From positions 1 through 64,000 of the forward strand of contig JAOAPC010000009.1 in assembly GCA_025462735.1 (NCBI GenBank): a stretch of 64,000 nt of DNA, in the 5' to 3' direction. This document shows positions 40,815 through 50,179 of the stretch, in pieces. A program made the position numbers and the translations under genes. The notes under the pieces are model-generated. The model was not told the origin of the DNA. It was given only the letters and a program-made list of their open reading frames with translations, and made no database searches. How positions within the stretch are numbered: the stretch's first letter is position 1; the number at the start of each line of letters is the position of its first letter. This stretch comes from Acidobacteriaceae bacterium (GTDB lineage: Bacteria; Acidobacteriota; Terriglobia; Terriglobales; Acidobacteriaceae).

Positions 40815-41513
40815 TTATTTGGAAATTGGAATAGTAACAGGCAGAGTCAAACGCCCCGAATACAGTGCCATGCCGACCACCGCATCTACTCCCAGTTGGT
40901 CAAGATGCTCAATTTCTTTGAAAGTTGCAACCCCTCCGGCGACGATGAGCTGTTTGCTGGTCGCCTGGCGCAAAGGACGAACTGCTTCGAGGGGAAGACC
41001 TGTCATCAGACCTTCGGTGTCGATGTGCGTGTAGAGAAACGCGCAACAGAAAGGATCGAGGGCCTGAATCATTTGCAGTGGAGAAATTGCAGTAATCTCG
41101 CGCCACCCGCGTATCGCCACTTTGCCGCCTTGTGCATCAATACCAAACACGAGCTTACTCTCGCCAAGTCCCGAGGCTAACTGTTTGGCAAAGTCGATAT
41201 TTATTTTTCCATCTTGAATCAGCGCCGAACCCAAAATAACGCGCTGCGCACCCAGATCCAGCATCTCCCGGGCAGTTGCTAGCGAACGGATTCCGCCACC
41301 AACCTGGCAGGGAAGTCTCTTCACGAAGAATTCGATCAGATCCGAATTCGAGCCGCGGCCCATAGCAGCGTCGAGATCGATGAGTTGCACTAGCGGGAAG
41401 GTGGAGAACCGCGATGCCCATACTTCGAAATCGTCGAACTCCAGGACCTTACGCTTTCCTTGGACCAGTTGGACGATTTTTCCTCCCATGAGATCGACTG
41501 AAGGGATCAGCAT
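40815..41513 (-). CDS. hisA: HisA, ProFAR isomerase
   Basis: 232 residues, (beta/alpha)8 barrel. Catalytic aspartates are in [10 protein letters not shown] (D7) and [16 protein letters not shown]. Phosphate-binding QVGGGIRS and VAGGVAT are present. It converts ProFAR to PRFAR in histidine synthesis. It is slightly short for the family (usually 240-245) because the C-terminus is truncated, and its eighth-strand region differs. The loop normally like TDI-x-x-DG reads THIDTEG. It overlaps hisF by seven bases. Confidence 0.9.
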
Positions 41514-42268
41514 GGAAACCTCACAGGAATTCCAGCGGCAAAAAGACGACTCTTCAGATCGGAGATAGAAGTAAGGCCAAAGTGGAAAATCGAAGCGGCC
41601 AGCGCGGCGTCCGCGGCACCTTCACGAAAGACATGGACGAAATGCTCCGCGCCGCCTGCGCCGCCGGATGCAATGACCGGAATTCTCACCGCTTCCGAAA
41701 TTATCCGAGTCAACTCGCAATCGAAGCCGTCACCAGTACCGTCGCGGTCCATCGAGGTGAGAAGGATCTCTCCCGCGCCGCGGCTTTCGGCCTCCTTCGC
41801 CCATTCAACCGCATCTTTGCCGGACAGTTTGCGTCCGCCCGACGTCCACGCCTCAAAGTTGGCACCGTTACGTTTGGCGTCGATGGCTACGATTACCGCT
41901 TGAGAGCCGAAATGTTGCGCGATGCATGTGATAAGCGAAGCATCGGCAAACGCGGCCGAGTTGATGCTGATCTTGTCCGCACCCGCGTCGAAGATTGCTG
42001 CTGCATCTTGCAGGGTTCGCACACCGCCACCCACCGTGAACGGTATAAACAGTTCCTTCGCGGTGCGGCGAACGGTCTCGAGCAAGGTCGTGCGCTTTTG
42101 ATGGGTAGCCGTGATGTCAAGCAGCACGATCTCATCCGCACCGGCAGCGCTGTGCGCGGCGGCCAGCTCAGCGGGATCGCCGGCGTCGCGCAGATTCAGA
42201 AACTGCGTGCCTTTGACCACGCGGCCGGCGTCGACGTCCAGACAGGCGATGATTCGTTTTGTCAGCAT
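41507..42268 (-). CDS. hisF: HisF, imidazole glycerol phosphate synthase cyclase subunit
   Basis: 253 residues. [19 protein letters not shown] with catalytic D11, [22 protein letters not shown] with the second Asp, [10 protein letters not shown] and [11 protein letters not shown] are all present. Length and motifs are standard. It uses ammonia from HisH to make IGP and AICAR. It begins one base from the hisH stop. Confidence 0.95.
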
Positions 42269-42862
42269 TTATAGATCACAAAAATTCTTCAGAATTGTGA
42301 GTCCCGCCTGCCCAGACTTCTCCGGGTGGAATTGCACTCCGAACAGATTGTCCTTTTCCACCGCAGCTGAAAAACCGCCGCCATATTCGCATCCGGCCGT
42401 TGTTGCTGCAAGGAGCGGAACACGATACGAGTGAGTGAAATAGACGTACGATCCGGGCGAAACTCCGCGAAGCAAGCGCGACCCGCCGTTGCGGATCTGC
42501 AAACTATTCCATCCCACGTGGGGACTTTTCACGTCGGGCGGGAACCGGCTGCACTCCCCGGCCCAAAGCGCGAGGCCATGAAGTTCAGGCGCCTCTTCGC
42601 TCGAAGCCAACATCCATTGCATACCAAGGCAAATGCCGAGAAAGGGAACGCTGCGCTCGATGCTTTCCATGATCACATCGCGAAGCCCAGAATCGTTCAA
42701 AGTCTTGGTTGTGGCGAAATGCCCGACCCCGGGAACGACGATTTTGTCCGACTTCGCGACTTGTGCTGGATCTGAAGTGACGATCGTCTCCGCGCCGAGA
42801 TGATCAAGCGCCTTCTTCACCGAGGTAAGGTTGCCGGCCTTGTAGTCAACTATGGCGATCAT
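42269..42862 (-). CDS. hisH: HisH, imidazole glycerol phosphate synthase glutaminase
   Basis: 197 residues, class I glutamine amidotransferase. The oxyanion strand is IVVPGVGHFATT, the nucleophile is in PFLGICLGMQWML, and the His-Glu pair is in GVQFHPEKSG. VDYKAGNLTSVKKALDHLG is the N-terminal signature. It supplies ammonia to HisF. It overlaps hisB by one base (ATG within TAATG). Confidence 0.95.
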   Translation of the reverse strand: MIAIVDYKAGNLTSVKKALDHLGAETIVTSDPAQVAKSDKIVVPGVGHFATTKTLNDSGLRDVIMESIERSVPFLGICLGMQWMLASSEEAPELHGLALWAGECSRFPPDVKSPHVGWNSLQIRNGGSRLLRGVSPGSYVYFTHSYRVPLLAATTAGCEYGGGFSAAVEKDNLFGVQFHPEKSGQAGLTILKNFCDL

Positions 42863-43449
42863 TACAGCAGCCCCTTAGTGCTGGGAAGGAGACGTTTCAT
42901 TTGTTGGTCACGCCAGCAAGCAGCCCGCAGCGCTCGCGCGAAGGCTTTGAACAATGCTTCGAGTTTGTGATGATTCGACCGGCCGTAGAGTATTCGAGCG
43001 TGAACATTGGCATTCGCGCCGCGGGCAAACCCATCGAAGAAGTCGTGCACCAGCTCTGATTGCAAATCGCCGACGACGCGCGTGCGAACTTTCGTATCCA
43101 CAACTGCCGCCGTGCGTCCGGAAAAATCAACGGCGGCCAGTCCCAGAGTCTCATCCATCGGCATTACGAAGTACCCCGCGCGCAAAATTCCGCGCTTATT
43201 GCCAAGCGCCTGCGCAAAGGCTTGCCCCAGGCCGATTCCCACGTCTTCGACGGTGTGGTGCTGATCAACGTCGAGGTCGCCGTTTGCGGAGAGATCGAGG
43301 TCAAACCCCCCATGGTGGGCGAAGAGCTCGAGCATGTGATCAAAAAATCGGATGCCGGTCGAAACCTTGTAGCGGCCGCGTCCTTCGATTACTAGCCGAA
43401 TGCGAATGCTGGTTTCTTTGGTGCTGCGATCGATGGCGGCCTTCCTCAT
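42862..43449 (-). CDS. hisB: HisB, imidazoleglycerol-phosphate dehydratase
   Basis: 195 residues, monofunctional (no fused phosphatase). Metal-binding histidine motifs are [27 protein letters not shown], a second pair in VHDFFDGFA and [20 protein letters not shown]. It dehydrates IGP to imidazole acetol phosphate. Histidinol-phosphate phosphatase is therefore a separate enzyme elsewhere. ATG overlaps the hisC stop by four bases. Confidence 0.95.
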
Positions 43450-44522
43450 CGCGCTACCTTCTGGCGCAGGCCGATTTCAGAAAACACTTCACGCAGCGAC
43501 GTGAGCAGCCGCTGGTTGTGCTCGCGAATTCCAACGGTGATGCGAACGCAATCCTGGCAGCCTGGGTCGCTGGAGCGGTCGCGAACCAGAATGCCGCGTG
43601 CCCGCATGGCTGAAATAAATTCTTTGCAGTGCTCGCCAAGATACATCAGGACAAAATTGGCGCGGCTCGGCCAGAAGCGGACGCCCCACACTTCAACTTC
43701 AGATTCAAGTTGACGGCGACCGTCGAGGGCTTGGCTAACATAGTTGCTAACGAAATCTTTATCGGCCAGCGCTTCCGGCAGACAAGCCAGCGCAACGGAA
43801 TTCAAGTTGTAAGGAGAGCTGGCGCGCCGGAGCACCTGCATCTGGTCGCCGTTGCCCATCAAAACGCCGATCCTGAGCCCGGCCAGTCCATAGGCCTTCG
43901 AGAACGTTCTGGATACGAAAAGATTGGGAAGCTCACGCCATTTGGGGGCGATAGTCTCGCCAGAAAATTCAAAATAAGCTTCGTCGACCAGGAATGCGGC
44001 ATGTGGAGCTACTTTCGCAATACTGGCGAGATCGGGAAGCGACGTGAATGCGCCTGTCGGGTTGTTCGGATTTGCCACGGCGATGAAGCGAGTGCGGCTG
44101 GTGATGGTAGAGAGGACATCGGCAGTAGGGAAGGCGAAGTCTTGACCCGCGGGGATTGAGACTACTCGAGCACCAGTAGCCGCCGCGTAAATTTCGTACA
44201 TTGCGAAAGTCGGAACCACCACGAGCGCATCGTCGCCGGGTTCGAGGTATGTTTCGCAGATCAGGTGAATGGCTTCGTCAGTTCCGTTGGTCAGAAGCAA
44301 TTCTTCCGGCGACACCCCGAACGCGGCAGCCACAACCCGTTCTCCTGGTTCTCGTACGGGATAACGGGCGAGCGAGTCACCATCCAGTTCGCGCAGCTTT
44401 TGCAAGACACGTCGAGAACATCCGGCGGTGTTTTCGTTGAAGTCCAGTCGCAAGCCTTCGCGGTTGCCCAGTGGCGGATGATATTCCTTGAGTGTGCGGA
44501 CGGCTTCTCTGGCTTTAAGCAT
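43446..44522 (-). CDS. hisC: HisC, histidinol-phosphate aminotransferase
   Basis: 358 residues, fold-type I PLP enzyme. [48 protein letters not shown] and the Schiff-base lysine in [16 protein letters not shown] are seen. It converts imidazole acetol phosphate to histidinol phosphate. It overlaps hisD by eight bases. Confidence 0.94.
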
Positions 44523-45768
44523 CGGGGCACCTCACCCGGATAGAATCCGCATGGGCTCTAAGTCCTTCCGTTTCGGCGAGGCGAATAATTGTAGGCGCAA
44601 TGCGATCCAAACCTTTGGAAGATAGATCCTGGACGGAAATCACTTTCACAAAATCCATTACGCTGAGGCCGCCGCGAAAGCGTGCCGCGCCTGCGGTAGG
44701 CAAAACATGATTGGGGCCGGACGCATAGTCGCCTGCGGCTTGCGCCGAATAGTCTCCGATGAAAACCGATCCGGCATTTCGCACCAGAGGCAAATCCTTT
44801 TTGTCGATGTTTATATGTTCGGGCGCAATGCAATTCGCCCAATCGAAGGCCTGTTCTCGCGAGCTGGCGACGAGGATTGCGCCACGAGTCGCAAGCGATT
44901 GTTCCGCAATAGGGTTTTTACGTAGCGGCTCTCGTCCGCCCTGCGGCAATCGGTTTGTAACCGACGCTGCGAGTTTTTTCGATGTTGTGATGAACACCAC
45001 CAGCGTCTCGGGATCGTGCTCAGCTTGCGCAAGCAGATCGGCGGCGATGAAAGCAGGATTTCCTTTTGATGAGACGATTACGACTTCAGTCGGCCCAGCC
45101 AGCATGTCAATCGCACAATCAAATGCGACCAGCTTTTTCGCGGCGGTCACATATAAATTTCCCGGACCAACGATTTTATCCACCCGTGGAATAGTTTCCG
45201 TCCCAAAGGCGAGCGCAGCAATCGCCTGAGCGCCTCCGACACGGTAGAACTCGTGTACGCCCAACATGGCTGCTGCTGCCAGAACTTCGGAGGTAGGGTG
45301 GGGCGAAACCACGCGGATGTCTTTCACTCCGGCAACTTGTGCCGGGATCACCGTCATCAGCAAAGTCGAGAGCAGAGGGAATCGGCCTCCCGGAACATAG
45401 CAGCCGACGGAATCGAGCGGACGGACCAACTGACCGAGCGAAATGCCGTCACGGGATCGAGTCCATTCTTTTGGCTTTTGCCACTCGCAAAACTGGCGAA
45501 TATTTTTTGTGGCGGTTCGCAGCGCAGTTTGAAGCGGGGCCGGCGCGAGCTTCCATGCTTCCTTCAATTCGGAATCACTGACTCGCAAATCCTGGGTGGG
45601 CTCGACTCCATCAAATTCACGCGCATACTTCATGAGCGCACGATTTCCACAACTGCGAACATCTTCGACAATTCGTCGTACCGCTGGCTCCACATCATCC
45701 AGCCGCGATCCGCGAGTCTCTAAATTAGCCACGTACGCGTCGGCGGCTTTGCCTTCGAGAATCCGCAT
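44515..45768 (-). CDS. hisD: HisD, histidinol dehydrogenase
   Basis: 417 residues from ATG at 45768. The open frame runs to 46065, but the extension is out-of-frame hisG sequence. VGCYVPGGRFPLLSTLLMT, AAAMLGVHEFYRVGGAQAI, IVGPGNLYVTAAKK, DMLAGPTEVVIV, DLLAQAEHDPE, and AGDYASGPNHVLPTAGAARF with zinc ligands are all standard. It performs the last two oxidations to histidine. Its start overlaps the hisG stop by one base (TAATG). Confidence 0.95.
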   Translation of the reverse strand: MRILEGKAADAYVANLETRGSRLDDVEPAVRRIVEDVRSCGNRALMKYAREFDGVEPTQDLRVSDSELKEAWKLAPAPLQTALRTATKNIRQFCEWQKPKEWTRSRDGISLGQLVRPLDSVGCYVPGGRFPLLSTLLMTVIPAQVAGVKDIRVVSPHPTSEVLAAAAMLGVHEFYRVGGAQAIAALAFGTETIPRVDKIVGPGNLYVTAAKKLVAFDCAIDMLAGPTEVVIVSSKGNPAFIAADLLAQAEHDPETLVVFITTSKKLAASVTNRLPQGGREPLRKNPIAEQSLATRGAILVASSREQAFDWANCIAPEHINIDKKDLPLVRNAGSVFIGDYSAQAAGDYASGPNHVLPTAGAARFRGGLSVMDFVKVISVQDLSSKGLDRIAPTIIRLAETEGLRAHADSIRVRCPDA

Positions 45769-46637
45769 TACATGACCACCTTGTTCAGCGGATATTCGAC
45801 GATGCCTTGCGCGTTCGCTTCTTTGAGGCGGGGAATCACCTCCCAAGCCTGCGACTCTTCGATCACGGTATTGACGGCCAGCCATTCCGGATCGCTGAGA
45901 GTAGAAATGGTTGGACGCTTCAGCGCGGGCAGCACGCTCAACACACGATCGAGATCTGCCTTGCGAACATTCAGCATCAAGCCGACGCGGTCTTTGGCTT
46001 CCATTGCGCCGCGCAGCATCAGCGCTAGATTCTCGATCTTGCGCCGCTTCCCGCAGTCTGCCCACGAGGTTTTGTTGGCGATGATCTGGGTATTGCTTTC
46101 CAGCACCGTGTCCATAATGCGCAGGTGATTGGCGCGTAGCGAGCTGCCGGTTTCGGTGACCTCAACGATAGCGTCGGCCAACATCGGAGGTTTCACCTCG
46201 GTCGCGCCCCATGAGAACTCAACTTGAACGTTTACGCCGCGTTCAGAGAAATACTTCCTGGTAACGTTCACGAGTTCGGTAGCAATGATGCGTCCGCTAA
46301 GATCGTCAGGTTTTTCGTATGACGAGCTTTCCGGTACCGCCAGAACCCAACGAACTTTTTCCCGGCTCTGCTTGGCATAGATCAAATCGGAAACCGTGGC
46401 CACTTCAAGCCCGCTCTCGATAACCCAATCGAGGCCAGTTAATCCGGCGTCAAGGGCCCCGTGCTCGACGTAACGGGCCATCTCCTGCGCTCGAATCAAC
46501 ATGCACTCGATCTCGGGGTCGCCGGTGGAGGCGAAGTACGAGCGGGAATTAGTGTGGATGGGCAATCCGGCCTGAGCGAAGAGTTGCAGTGTCGCTTCCT
46601 GCAGGCTGCCCTTGGGAATTCCTAAGCGGATCTTCAT
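45768..46637 (-). CDS. hisG: HisG, ATP phosphoribosyltransferase (long form)
   Basis: 289 residues. [17 protein letters not shown] at the N-terminus, [19 protein letters not shown], and the PRPP-binding region [19 protein letters not shown]. The ~75-residue C-terminal domain ([20 protein letters not shown] ... [20 protein letters not shown]) is the ACT-like regulatory part of the long form, so no HisZ is needed and histidine feedback inhibition is expected. It catalyses the first committed step. Overlaps hisI by four bases. Confidence 0.95.
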
Positions 46638-46987
46638 CGTGCGATCTCCGCAATCACGGGGGTGGTGTTGAGCTTAATCGGTTTGGTGAAGCACGAGCGT
46701 GTGCCCTCGTGACACACGACGCCTGCGCCCTCGACTTCAACCTGAATCAATAGGGTGTCGGAGTCGCAATCAGTCGAAGCGGAGATTACCTTCAGTCGGT
46801 TGCCGGAGGTTTCGCCTTTGGTCCAAAGCTGATTGCGGGTTCGGCTATAAAAAGTCACGTAGCCGAGCGATTGGGTCTGCTGCCAGGCTTCACGGTTCAT
46901 GAAGCCGAGCATCAGGATTTCCCCGCTGCTGCCGTCCTGAACAATGGCGGGAACCAGGCCCTGCATTTTTTCAAAGTCAATGTTCAT
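46634..46987 (-). CDS. hisI: HisI, phosphoribosyl-AMP cyclohydrolase
   Basis: 117 residues, cyclohydrolase only, with no fused HisE pyrophosphatase. [47 protein letters not shown] (metal-binding D73, C74, D75, D77) and [11 protein letters not shown] (C92, C99) are the zinc- and magnesium-binding signatures. It is the first gene of the operon, directly behind the His-rich leader peptide and attenuator. hisE is not in the window. Confidence 0.95.
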
Positions 46988-47019
46988 AGAATTCGCCCTG
47001 TTGCGCGTAAAAACAAAAA

Positions 47020-47048
47020 GCCCGCTGAGCTTTTGCGCTTCAGCGGGC
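47020..47048 (-). terminator. Attenuator terminator of the his operon
   Basis: On the minus strand GCCCGCTGA (47048-47040) pairs with TCAGCGGGC (47028-47020), a perfect 9-bp stem, followed by TTTTTGTTTTT (47019-47009). It is placed between the leader peptide and hisI, 25 bp after the leader stop codon and 32 bp before the hisI start. The part CCCGCTG of the 5' arm can instead pair with CGGCGGG of the leader (47093-47087), giving a competing antiterminator. Confidence 0.85.
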
Positions 47049-47073
47049 CTGAAACTTATGTTTGCTGGCTAAC

Positions 47074-47142
47074 TCAGCCGCATACCCCCGCCGTCGCGCA
47101 GTGCGCGTGATGATGGTGGTGGTGATGGCGACTAGTCAGCAT
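47074..47142 (-). CDS. hisL: His-rich leader peptide of the his operon
   Basis: A 22-codon frame starts at ATG 47142. It encodes MLTSR, then seven consecutive His codons (CAT CAC CAC CAC CAT CAT CAC), Ala, an eighth His, and CATAGVCG before TGA. A His run directly in front of the his operon, followed by an intrinsic-terminator hairpin, is the classical layout of ribosome-mediated attenuation. The ATG lies nine bases after the -10 element, so there is almost no 5' untranslated region and no Shine-Dalgarno. It is too short for usual gene calling. Low charged tRNA-His would stall the ribosome and favour read-through. Confidence 0.88.
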   Translation of the reverse strand: MLTSRHHHHHHHAHCATAGVCG

Positions 47143-47151
47143 GAGAGATTT

Positions 47152-47180
47152 AAGTTACGCGACGACGATCAAGCGGTCAA
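47152..47180 (-). promoter_or_regulatory. Promoter of the his operon leader
   Basis: TTGACC (complement of 47175-47180) and TAACTT (complement of 47152-47157) are separated by exactly 17 bp. The expected transcription start is about 5-9 bases downstream, that is, at or just before the leader ATG at 47142. Confidence 0.65.
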
Positions 47181-47292
47181 TTCGAAAGATTCGATGCGCA
47201 TCATCGGATTTCGTAATGCGACAGCCGGGATTTCGCAATGTCAGATCTGGCCGACGCCAACTGCTGCGATGGGCCGGACTTTCGCAGCTGAT

Positions 47293-48432
47293 TCAGCGGG
47301 GACGTTTCTGCGAAACCGCAGTCACCTTGGCAGAACCGGAGCTGACGAAGTCAGACGCGTATTGCACTTGAAGTTGGTCGGCGGCGACGCGCACGCCATC
47401 GCCGTTCCAGTGGGTGTCGTCGCGCCAGTACAGCAGACTTCCGTGTTCGATGCCTTCGGCGGCGGCTTGCTGAAGCGCGGCGGTCGTATTCACAACGGGC
47501 ATATCCTTTAGCCTCTTCTGCAATTCCTCAAATGCTTCGCTCTTGTTCGTCTTCGGCGCGTCTTTTATTAGAGGTTGATAGACGGTGTACTTGCTGGGGA
47601 CGAGAATGACGATCAATCTAAAGTTCCGTTGGCGCAGCTCTTTATTCAAGACGCGGAAATATTTCACCCATGACGGGACTGCGTCGGATGTAGCGTCACG
47701 CAAATCATATAGTTGAAAGAGGATTGGCCGTCCATTCGGCAGAATGTGGCGAACGACGTTTACTGAATAAGGATTCGGCAAGAGGCGCCCGTCGTAAAGG
47801 CGGCCTACCAGTTCGCGGGACACATTCGATAGCGGCGAATATTGCACATTTCTAGACCAGCGATCAAATCCCTCGAAGCCGGGATCTTCTTGTGTGGTGC
47901 GGGGGTAGCTCAGACTCGCGTCCATCAGCTCAAAAAAAACTATGCCATGGGACATGCCAAGTTGGTCAATCAGGACCATGAGGCTTTCGCGGCTGATTGA
48001 CCGTATGGGCGAACATGCATTGTAGATGGACAGGCCGGTGCGCTGGGAGATTTGCGACGAGAGAGTTGCGTCACCAGGTTGCTCAGCGCCGATTCCGAAA
48101 GAATCCCCGACTAGGATGGCATCGTAAGGGGCAGATGAAGCTGGATTCGCGAAGCCGCGCCGATCAATGTGAATATGCATAGGCCTATACTCCCGGCATT
48201 CCGTGCAGTTGCCGAGCGAGGCCAGGTCACCATAGGCACGAGAATTCTGGTAAGTAAGATTGGCGCGGAGTGGGCCTAAATCATGTGGGCCAGTGATCAT
48301 AGCGAACTCATGCATACGAAACGTGTACCACTGGGGCGGCGCGAAGCGCAGCATGACGTCGAGCAAAGCCCAGAGCAAGAGCACGCGGGGCAGAAGATAT
48401 CCGCATCGGAGAATTGAATTTCGATTTGGCAT
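47293..48432 (-). CDS. AlgJ/AlgX-like SGNH-fold protein
   Basis: 379 residues. One N-terminal membrane anchor (LLPRVLLLWALLDVMLRF), then a GDSL/SGNH-like domain: VGDSFGIG (nucleophile S111) and near the end WRDDTHWNGDG (D338, H341), the catalytic Asp-His pattern of AlgJ/AlgX O-acetyltransferase partners. It lies 12 bp after the MBOAT gene on the same strand. The pair probably O-acylates a cell-surface polysaccharide: MBOAT passes the acyl group through the membrane and this protein transfers it in the periplasm. The target glycan is unknown. Confidence 0.8.
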   Translation of the reverse strand: MPNRNSILRCGYLLPRVLLLWALLDVMLRFAPPQWYTFRMHEFAMITGPHDLGPLRANLTYQNSRAYGDLASLGNCTECREYRPMHIHIDRRGFANPASSAPYDAILVGDSFGIGAEQPGDATLSSQISQRTGLSIYNACSPIRSISRESLMVLIDQLGMSHGIVFFELMDASLSYPRTTQEDPGFEGFDRWSRNVQYSPLSNVSRELVGRLYDGRLLPNPYSVNVVRHILPNGRPILFQLYDLRDATSDAVPSWVKYFRVLNKELRQRNFRLIVILVPSKYTVYQPLIKDAPKTNKSEAFEELQKRLKDMPVVNTTAALQQAAAEGIEHGSLLYWRDDTHWNGDGVRVAADQLQVQYASDFVSSGSAKVTAVSQKRPR

Positions 48433-48444
48433 CTATATCTCCGC

Positions 48445-49881
48445 TCAAAATTGAAAGTACAGGAATGGCGATCGCTGCCCGCCAGTGATCATGACCAGGC
48501 AGCACATCAGGCCGGCCGCGAGGGCACATGCCACTTGCGGACTCCACTGGTGCGACATCTCAAAAGTGTTTGGAGCAGCATGCGCGATGACGGCCGCGAC
48601 TGCAATGCACGCTGCCAACGCAACTGCTCCGGTAAACATGTAGCCGCTGGTGGGATAAAACATTTTCGCCAGCCACTGCGCGGCCATTGTGAATGAGTCG
48701 GCGCGAAAAATCACCCATCCGATGATTGATAGCAGGAACATGGCGGCGCGACGAACAAGGGTAGGCAGGGCATCCCAGGGTTCGCCGAGGCGCTTATACA
48801 ACATCAGCAACGCGCCGTGATAACCGCCCCACACGAGGAACGTCCAGTTCGCGCCGTGCCAGATTCCCCCCAGCAGCATGGTGATGAGCAGGTTGCGGTA
48901 CATGCCGCTGCGATTGCCGCCAAGCGGAACATATAGATAATCCCGCAGACAAGTCGAGAGTGAGATGTGCCAGCGACGCCAGAAATCCGAGGGATCGAGA
49001 GCCTTGTATGGCGAGTTGAAATTTTGCGGCAGACGGATTCCGAACATGTGGGCTAGGCCGACGGCCATGTCGCTGTATCCGGAGAAATCGAAATAGATTT
49101 GATACGTGTATCCCAGAGCGCAAAGCCAGGCTCCAGCAGTGCCCAGGCTCGAAAAAGATCCAAGGCCCGCATTGATAACTGCCGCGATCGTATCCGCGAT
49201 GAGAACTTTCTTGATTAGACCGATAACGAAATAGGACCAGCCGATATCGAGACCGGAGCAGCGATTTGCCGCGTCCAGATGTTCCAGGTCATTTTCGACT
49301 TGGCGGAAGCGCACGATCGGCCCCGCGACAAGTTGCGGAAACAACGCCACGTAACAGGCGAACTCGAAGATGTTGGTGGTGGGCTTGATGGTGCCGCGAT
49401 AGCTATCAACGATGTAGCTGATGGTGTGGAAGGTGTAGAAGGAAATTCCCACCGGCAGCAGCGCGCCCTCAAGCAGGTCTTTGTTCCAAAGCAGTGAGTG
49501 AAGGTGAAATTTCCAGAGCAGCGAGGATCCGCCCTCCATACCCCACAGAGAAGCGATCCATTCTCCGGAACTCATGGCAAAATTCCAGAATTTGAAATAC
49601 TTGAAAAAACCGAGAAGTGACAGATCAACCACGATAGGAATGATTAGGCAAAGCCTTCGGCGAAGACCCTCGCGGAAACGCAGAAATCCGATGCCGGCAG
49701 CGTAGCTAACCAGGGTCGAGAAGGCCATGAGCGCGCAGAATTTGTAATTCCAGAAGGAGTAGAAAACGTATCCAGCGACGGTGAGCCAAATGTATCGCAG
49801 CTGCCGCGACGATAGTCTCCAGAAGACGAAGTAAACCACGGGAAGAAAAACAAACAGAAATACGCGGCTGTTGAAGAGCAT
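48445..49881 (-). CDS. MBOAT-family O-acyltransferase (AlgI-like)
   Basis: 478 residues with about eleven membrane segments. Starts LFNSRVFLFVFLPVVYFVFW, typical of AlgI. Conserved features: PVGISFYTFHTISYIVD, DFSGYSDMAVGLAHMFGI, DFWRRWHISLSTCLRDYLY (H305), and the active-site His in LLGGIWHGANWTF (H342). It transfers acetyl groups across the inner membrane for polysaccharide O-acetylation, together with the adjacent AlgJ-like protein. AlgI orthologues act on alginate, but no alginate genes are here, so another glycan is likely. Confidence 0.9.
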   Translation of the reverse strand: MLFNSRVFLFVFLPVVYFVFWRLSSRQLRYIWLTVAGYVFYSFWNYKFCALMAFSTLVSYAAGIGFLRFREGLRRRLCLIIPIVVDLSLLGFFKYFKFWNFAMSSGEWIASLWGMEGGSSLLWKFHLHSLLWNKDLLEGALLPVGISFYTFHTISYIVDSYRGTIKPTTNIFEFACYVALFPQLVAGPIVRFRQVENDLEHLDAANRCSGLDIGWSYFVIGLIKKVLIADTIAAVINAGLGSFSSLGTAGAWLCALGYTYQIYFDFSGYSDMAVGLAHMFGIRLPQNFNSPYKALDPSDFWRRWHISLSTCLRDYLYVPLGGNRSGMYRNLLITMLLGGIWHGANWTFLVWGGYHGALLMLYKRLGEPWDALPTLVRRAAMFLLSIIGWVIFRADSFTMAAQWLAKMFYPTSGYMFTGAVALAACIAVAAVIAHAAPNTFEMSHQWSPQVACALAAGLMCCLVMITGGQRSPFLYFQF

Positions 49882-50179
49882 GGGATTGTTTCCGCGCCCA
49901 CCAGCTTTGGCGGAAATCAGTTTTGCGCGGGTGTGCGGCTCGCAACCGGAGAATATCGTGAGAGCGGGGCGGAGCGGACATTACGGCGGTAATGGGTGGG
50001 CAGGAGAACGGCTCAAAGCTTACTTCTGCCGCTTCTTCAGGTGAGGAAGGGTCTCCGGCACAACGGCCTGCTAAAATGAGATCACCTCATAAACAGATTT
50101 CCCGCGGCCCCGAACTGCCAAACTCAAATCAGCTGTGAAATGCGCAAATCGGAATACGCCGTTTGATTAAAGGAGAGAC

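Follow-up and report, generated by a model that had tools for sequence, protein, structure and literature searches.

What is a short open reading frame with seven consecutive His codons doing directly in front of a histidine operon, and by what route might it act on the genes behind it? The window (the whole 64,000-nucleotide stretch of Acidobacteriaceae DNA analysed) poses this question on its minus strand, where reading of the sequence gave the order TTGACC, 17 nt, TAACTT, 9 nt, ATG, a 22-codon ORF, 25 nt, a GC-rich hairpin with 9-bp arms, the U-tract TTTTTGTTTTT, 21 nt and then hisI. The -35 element TTGACC (47175-47180), assigned from the sequence and from its conserved position in relatives, is separated by a 17-bp spacer from the -10 element TAACTT (47152-47157), which is of the TAnnnT form. 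Translation of the leader ORF (47074-47142; 22 codons plus TGA) gave MLTSRHHHHHHHAHCATAGVCG, with the ATG at 47142-47140, the TGA stop at 47076-47074, the seven consecutive His codons as codons 6-12 (47107-47127) and one further His codon besides. The terminator has a 5′ arm of GCCCGCTGA (47040-47048) and a 3′ arm of TCAGCGGGC (47020-47028), both also seen in the consensus helix of relatives, and its U-tract (47009-47019) corresponds to a T-rich tract in their alignment. Thus, the promoter hexamers, the 22-codon ORF with 7+1 His codons, the 9-bp terminator, the U-tract and hisI named in the first-pass annotation were all present. A seven-His run matched once in the window and in 0 of 100 dinucleotide-preserving shuffles.

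The first structural gene is hisI (phosphoribosyl-AMP cyclohydrolase; 46634-46987, minus strand, ATG at 46987-46985), which matched NCBIfam NF000768 with 134.7 bits against a cut-off of 126. The operon order is hisI-hisG-hisD-hisC-hisB-hisH-hisF followed by a HisA-like gene, the genes after hisI (40815-46637, minus strand, NCBIfam) being close or overlapping. The last of them (40815-41513) scored 167.8 bits against a cut-off of 228.95 and, judged from its sequence, is a divergent HisA. Upstream of the his promoter, two genes lie on the same strand (47293-49881), one DltB-like with a score below the family cut-off and the other encoding a 379-aa protein with no NCBIfam match.

Folding of the RNA of 47146-47009, a check suggested in the first-pass annotation, gave -57.1 kcal/mol (z = -4.35), more stable than all 200 of 200 shuffles. 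Three alternative helices were predicted, namely 1:2, 2:3 (the antiterminator) and 3:4 (the terminator). Strand 1 (47128-47140, minus strand), which begins at the G of the ATG and extends into codon 5, forms the 5′ arm of the 1:2 protector hairpin and pairs in the minimum free energy fold with 47068-47081, a segment that surrounds the stop codon and supplies the 3′ arm for the lower part of the 1:2 helix. Strand 2 (CGGCGGG, 47087-47093) pairs with CCCGCTG of the terminator, whose 5′ and 3′ arms are strands 3 and 4. Of the two exclusive structures proposed earlier, the pairing of strand 2 with the terminator stands, and the third helix (47140-47128 with 47081-47068) had been missed; modelling suggests that this helix would tie up the antiterminator region in the absence of a ribosome.

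To see how widely the arrangement occurs, hisI neighbourhoods were compared. The hisI family was present in 47 of 61 genomes (our own and 60 relatives); the remaining 14, among them 10 of the 43 genomes of high quality, had no hisI-family match. All 47 neighbourhoods were read, and a His leader, defined as a short ORF in which a stretch of 8 codons includes at least 4 for His, was located on the strand of hisI within 700 nt upstream in 42, our own included, so that the His-rich leader before hisI is kept in relatives. Five loci (L001, L002, L003, L004 and L006) had no His leader by this definition. Over 40 leaders, His was encoded by 121 CAC and 144 CAT codons and the neighbouring codons CAA and CAG were rare (5 and 9); since third bases vary and CAA/CAG are rare, it is His that is kept and not the letters. 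The run of codons for the amino acid in question, a feature of ribosome-mediated transcription attenuators, is present at the level of sequence. Among 80 named hisI loci, 14 bear an acidobacterial title, and a leader was found in 13 of these (L138 being without), including MAGs of Acidobacteriaceae, Bryobacteraceae and Vicinamibacterales; of those with other titles, L135 and L172 had a chance-like ORF. The record of L137 is titled Cyanobacteria and has the same leader peptide as L100; the title looks wrong.

The retained identity of the His codons also bears on whether the ORF could be incidental to a T-box or another ligand- or tRNA-sensing RNA. T-boxes do occur before hisS in some Firmicutes, and one has been proposed for C. 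glutamicum hisDCB, according to the accessible portions of two papers (PMC2965389, PMC3896937). In the window at 44000-50000, RF00514 and the T-box models of Rfam 15 had no match at E <= 1, the sole Rfam match at this threshold (E 0.72) being on the opposite strand. With codon identity kept as well, a sensing RNA of this kind is scarcely credible here. The same search agrees with the earlier description of the attenuator as unannotated.

The promoter had been called good; measured against the consensus it is weak (-35, 5/6; -10, 3/6), and a generic sigma-70 scan with a threshold of 9 matches in 12 reported no promoter in 46900-47400. Its assignment is supported by the conservation of its position in relatives: 35 of the 42 leaders located by way of hisI have a hexamer with 5 or 6 matches to TTGACA that starts 34-43 nt ahead of the ATG. 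A single ATG was possible in 36 of these 42 leaders; for the others, the script picked one on the basis of the promoter. In a larger set of 79 single-ATG leaders, TTGAC occurred 65 times at 34-44 nt before the ATG and 8 times elsewhere up to 120 nt; the commonest base was T at -15 (51%) and -10 (54%) and, narrowly, A at -14 (41%), T and C were commonest at -2 and -1, respectively, and a Shine-Dalgarno-like 4-mer was present in 3. Because some of the 79 were found with a model that contains the promoter, the set of 42 obtained through hisI is the cleaner of the two. TTGAC was at 34-44 nt in 6 of the 13 leader-bearing hisI loci with acidobacterial titles, and in several Bryobacterales-type loci no clear -35 was seen before the leader.

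From the position of the -10 element, the transcript is expected to start at 47142-47145 (minus strand), and its 5′ UTR would be about 0-3 nt long. The start of our -10 lies some 3 nt beyond the distance of about 12 bp to the ATG that is given for leaderless genes in the part of the source available (PMC3160421), so that a UTR of 1-3 nt is just as likely as none. The sequence has the marks by which leaderless mRNAs are recognised, i.e., TAnnnT near the start codon, a UTR predicted to be absent or of a few nt, and no Shine-Dalgarno. In the same source, as far as accessible, 9.7-19.4% of genes were predicted to be leaderless in all three acidobacterial genomes (PMC3160421). While the narrow promoter-to-ATG spacing is read directly, the start site and leaderless initiation are what we infer from it: the leader ORF is probably initiated near-leaderlessly, and in most leaders this is backed by a -35 at 34-44 nt. 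The same conserved spacing, together with the 3 in 79 Shine-Dalgarno-like 4-mers, lends weight to the earlier proposal of a near-leaderless transcript and speaks against a longer 5′ UTR made from an upstream promoter, in which case the His attenuator would be the same and its leader not leaderless. Such a UTR would fit the empty result of the generic scan and the 112 nt that lie between the -35 and the preceding gene; with TTGAC-TAnnnT at 34-43 nt from the ATG in 35 of 42 leaders, we consider it unlikely.

An intrinsic terminator before the first structural gene, as is expected of a transcription attenuator, was found by script in 40 of the 42 leaders; L012 and L041, without one by the script's rule, were dropped from the pairing tests, and L007, L036 and L045, for which the wrong hairpin was probably chosen, were retained. 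When arms were swapped among the 40 leaders, own arms paired better than swapped ones for 2:3 (-18.7 versus -17.0 ± 0.37 kcal/mol; 0 of 5000 permutations) and for 1:2 (-19.35 versus -17.64 ± 0.46 kcal/mol; 0 of 5000). For 3:4, the figure was 0 of 2000, partly a consequence of choosing hairpins that pair. Such swaps ignore relatedness among the genomes, the effect of which is gauged by the pairings 1:3 and 2:4 that the mechanism does not need (48 of 2000 each). Consensus folding of 34 sequences with RNAalifold showed two-sided change in 7 of the 9 pairs of the terminator helix, and a T-rich tract downstream of the hairpin was visible in the same alignment.

Because of the terminator and its U-tract, the element is to be regarded as a transcription attenuator and not, as first labelled, a translational one. 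The short distance of just 21 nt between the U-tract and the hisI ATG would suit a leader that governs access to the hisI start site; the competing arms, however, stop short of both the U-tract and hisI, and the T-rich tract comes after the hairpin in the alignment of 34 sequences, which makes control of translation very unlikely.

Whether the position of a ribosome could choose between the helices was modelled in 40 leaders by masking the bases covered by the ribosome and considering the RNA made before strand 4. The mean number of 2:3 pairs was 7.8 for a ribosome stalled within the run of His codons, as compared with 2.1 for one at the stop codon and 4.5 for RNA that carried no ribosome, and the stalled ribosome exceeded the one at the stop codon by more than one 2:3 pair in 36 of 40 leaders. 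Free RNA formed at least four 2:3 pairs in 20 of 40 leaders, so that the 1:2 hairpin is not protective everywhere. For our own leader the values were 6.9 stalled, 0.0 at the stop codon and 0.0 with no ribosome; by A site, there were 2.4-4.1 pairs at codons 2-4, 6.8-7.0 at codons 5-11 and no more than 0.4 at codon 12 or later, the best antiterminator window being codons 5-11 as compared with codons 6-12 for the His run. Over all 40 leaders, the mean was 7.45 with the A site before the run, 6.55 within it and 1.63 after it; as sites before the run are as permissive as sites within, it is only the downstream limit of the permissive codons that the model puts to the test. His accounted for 50% of permissive positions versus 29% of leader codons in the 40 leaders. 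In the full-length RNA at equilibrium, the terminator persisted in 36 of 40 despite a stalled ribosome, and antitermination must hence be kinetic, during transcription. In the model, then, stalling releases an antiterminator that is exclusive with the terminator, the behaviour anticipated for this class of element.

Taken together, we put at roughly 0.88 the probability that the locus is a ribosome-mediated transcription attenuator of the his operon that senses His and has a near-leaderless start. Its ORF and arms, the co-varying pairing, the taxonomic conservation and the narrow promoter-to-ATG spacing, all read at the sequence level, point to this, and stalling, termination and read-through are the steps that we infer. 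RNA polymerase would start at, or up to about 3 bases before, the leader ATG, and a ribosome would have to enter at the 5′ end unaided by a Shine-Dalgarno. When His-tRNA is abundant, the ribosome would reach the stop codon and cover strand 2, and with no ribosome strand 1 would hold strand 2; in either case 3:4 would form and transcription would end before hisI. With His-tRNA scarce, the ribosome would stall in the His run and cover strand 1, leaving strand 2 free to pair with strand 3 while strand 4 is still to be transcribed; the polymerase would then read into the his genes. An attenuator of the his operon sensing His, the central proposal of the first-pass annotation, is in keeping with the leader in 42 of 47 neighbourhoods, its co-varying arms and its preserved codon identity.

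A covariance model (R1) was built from 34 of the 40 leaders (alignment A1; L007, L009, L026, L034, L035 and L036 left out). In 299 genomes of the class, 237 matched R1 at E <= 0.01 and at least 150 at E <= 1.6e-10, with one listed place per genome; of these at least 150, 138 had not been used and 12 had been used in building the model. Across the phylum sample, 60 of 247 genomes matched at E <= 0.001. In a control of 49 genomes of other groups (named records), the best match had E 3.4e-7 and 21 matched at E <= 0.01, many of them hairpins alone, at the model's 3′ end; R1 is unspecific below about E 1e-6, and weak matches need checking. The best control match (L350, from a MAG labelled Ferrithrix) is itself a His leader before hisI-hisG, and another (L352, Aeromonas) is hisL before his genes. 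The leader of L350 (941) is His-rich with a GTG start, and its HisI and HisG are 59% and 64% identical to those of the window; as Ferrithrix belongs to the Actinobacteria, this indicates transfer or mislabelling. In 50 loci of the class (L048-L097), hisI was present in all 50 and the His criterion was passed by 49 (L081 fails). Of the 20 strongest full-length R1 matches outside the class (L099-L118), 17 passed the criterion and 18 had his genes, the exceptions being L115 (argC) and L116, which runs to the contig end. His leaders were also found before hisZ (L117, below the family cut-off, and L221) and hisG (L110 and L118), and the gene of L218 resembles hisG by reading. It is a well-supported reading of these sequences that the putative His attenuator is conserved over much of Acidobacteriota.

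Extra R1 matches revealed the same layout before other amino-acid genes, identified by NCBIfam: 1) before metY, MFDVAHNTTMAMCTIIMCMRR... (L217), 2) before thrB, a thrL-like leader rich in Thr/Ile, MSTGGATTITTTKRIMRI... (L219, one genome), 3) before argC, MLLPPAERPAARVRRAPCVRRVAAV (L115, minus strand, 1568-1645), and 4) before cysH, a leader with a Cys cluster, ...CICCCSNIV... (L222 and L348, one genome). By reading, the genes after thrB and argC resemble thrC and argB. The window of permissive codons predicted by the model takes in, or extends to, the Met and Thr clusters and the first of the Arg clusters, and it misses the Cys codons of the cysH leader in its one genome. Among 10 further metY-type regions, 3 (L255, L257 and L259) had a Met-rich leader near a TTGAC promoter; in these and L217, Met/Cys-rich near-leaderless ORFs with terminators stand before metY. 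An Arg-rich leader was present in 9 of 13 further regions before argC-type matches; with L115, the only locus whose argC gene was confirmed by NCBIfam, this makes 10/10 regions of clade f52 (the others being L335-L339, L341 and L344-L346) and 0/4 in f87 and f89. All ten f52 Arg leaders have TTGACA, a 16-nt spacer and a -35 to ATG distance of 37-42 nt. The Arg-leader scan gave 0 of 280 in dinucleotide shuffles of the 14 regions and three matches in 842,998 strand-bases of other gene neighbourhoods, two of them the same metY leader, which had been retrieved twice, and the third lying before asd. Arg share alone is weak in GC-rich genomes (24%, as compared with 16% in 62 short ORFs taken as background, of which one third have 20% or more), so that support for the Arg leaders comes from position and from rare codons (28 of 64 versus 61 of 337), a count over relatives that are not independent.

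Other candidates were set aside. In two genomes (L300, 1283; L349, 846), asd is preceded by near-leaderless ORFs that are rich in Lys/Arg/Thr and have terminators, a case too weak to call. A Trp-leader pattern, TTGAC at a fixed distance from the ATG plus two Trp codons, was dropped as unspecific, having matched 121 of 121 genomes with fewer but many matches in controls. R1 match L224 had no leader that could be seen. No such leader was found before trpE (L199), ilvC-ilvB (L200) or the PF00682 leuA-type locus (L320) of our own genome, nor at 30 PF00682 loci of the phylum, L320 included. Also set aside was R1 match L223, in a relative, where a small His-rich protein with a signal-like start, seemingly secreted, precedes a terminator directly before a carA-like gene.

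The protein of L223 gives some ground for supposing that our ORF, too, encodes a small functional His-rich (metal-binding) protein beside a coincidental terminator. Against this, hisI is present in all 50 class loci checked, the arms of 1:2 and 2:3 co-vary, and comparable elements have codons for Met, Thr or Arg in front of the corresponding genes, making a functional protein extremely unlikely. Attenuation through leader peptides may extend further: we see about even odds that in Acidobacteriota leaderless leader-peptide attenuators are general for amino-acid synthesis, with His phylum-wide and Met (metY), Thr/Ile (thrBC), Cys (cysH) and Arg (argCB) in certain clades. If so, the Arg version, with CGA and AGG as its rare codons, would attenuate an operon for arginine biosynthesis by way of arginine codons. 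A search of mostly open papers, as far as their text was accessible, found no leader-peptide attenuator of an arg operon; arginine-codon sensing by another mechanism is described for Salmonella speF in the available part of PMC6386406. The same layout before other operons would supply regulators open to testing in soil bacteria that are known chiefly through their genomes.

Among known systems, hisL of enterobacteria is a ribosome-mediated attenuator with a His run. It is alike (RF00514) in its short His-run ORF, competing hairpins, terminator and downstream his genes, and it differs in that the Aeromonas ORF has AAAGGA upstream, for which the leader of the window has no room, and in that this leader precedes hisI, not hisG. 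RF00514 (gathering threshold 49 bits) was unmatched at 44000-50000 of the window (E <= 1) and, at E <= 0.1, in 12 acidobacterial loci, among them the His loci L018, L028, L031, L040, L101 and L106; the Aeromonas leader (L352), as a control, scored 78 bits. The hisL arrangement claimed at first therefore holds for the way of working and not for membership of the same family.

In the Actinobacteria, according to the text available, Streptomyces leuL, trpL, ilvL, metL and thrL and C. glutamicum ilvBNC have a 5′-end leader ORF with amino-acid codons and attenuation. Leaderless leader peptides are described, in the accessible parts, for Streptomyces lividans (PMC8079986) and C. glutamicum ilvBNC (PMC11857589, and likewise in the title of Morbach 2000 as cited in PMC10272879), and mycobacterial poly-Cys ORFs are likewise leaderless (cited in PMC9031893, seen in part). 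These leaders differ in phylum and amino acid and, unlike the acidobacterial His leader, some from Streptomyces have no clear intrinsic terminator in the sections available. In Sinorhizobium meliloti, the transcript of the trpL attenuator starts at the leader ATG; it differs in sensing Trp, in belonging to Alphaproteobacteria and in the trans functions reported for trpL (PMC7298713, in part). Given these precedents, the remark that a leaderless start is unusual for attenuator peptides was too strong. Outside Proteobacteria, His-codon leader peptides also precede hisS/hisZ paralogues in bacilli (PMC2965389, accessible part), with other genes controlled and the likeness drawn from description, not sequence. 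For Acidobacteria themselves, the available parts of two surveys report that almost no predicted attenuator had an associated function (Naville and Gautheret 2010, PMC2965389) and name the phylum only in a leader-gene distance statistic (Korolev 2016, PMC4833913), and a search of mostly open papers, in the text accessible, found no acidobacterial his attenuator. The present locus would give the phylum an attenuator with a named signal, target and mechanism, plus a covariance model for much of it. With the sensor ORF at the 5′ end, ribosome loading must beat the folding of 1:2, and such an ORF is a clean system in which to time leaderless initiation against transcription. As judged from sequence, what we describe appears to be a known kind of attenuator in a new phylum, with a layout common to apparent attenuators of other amino acids.
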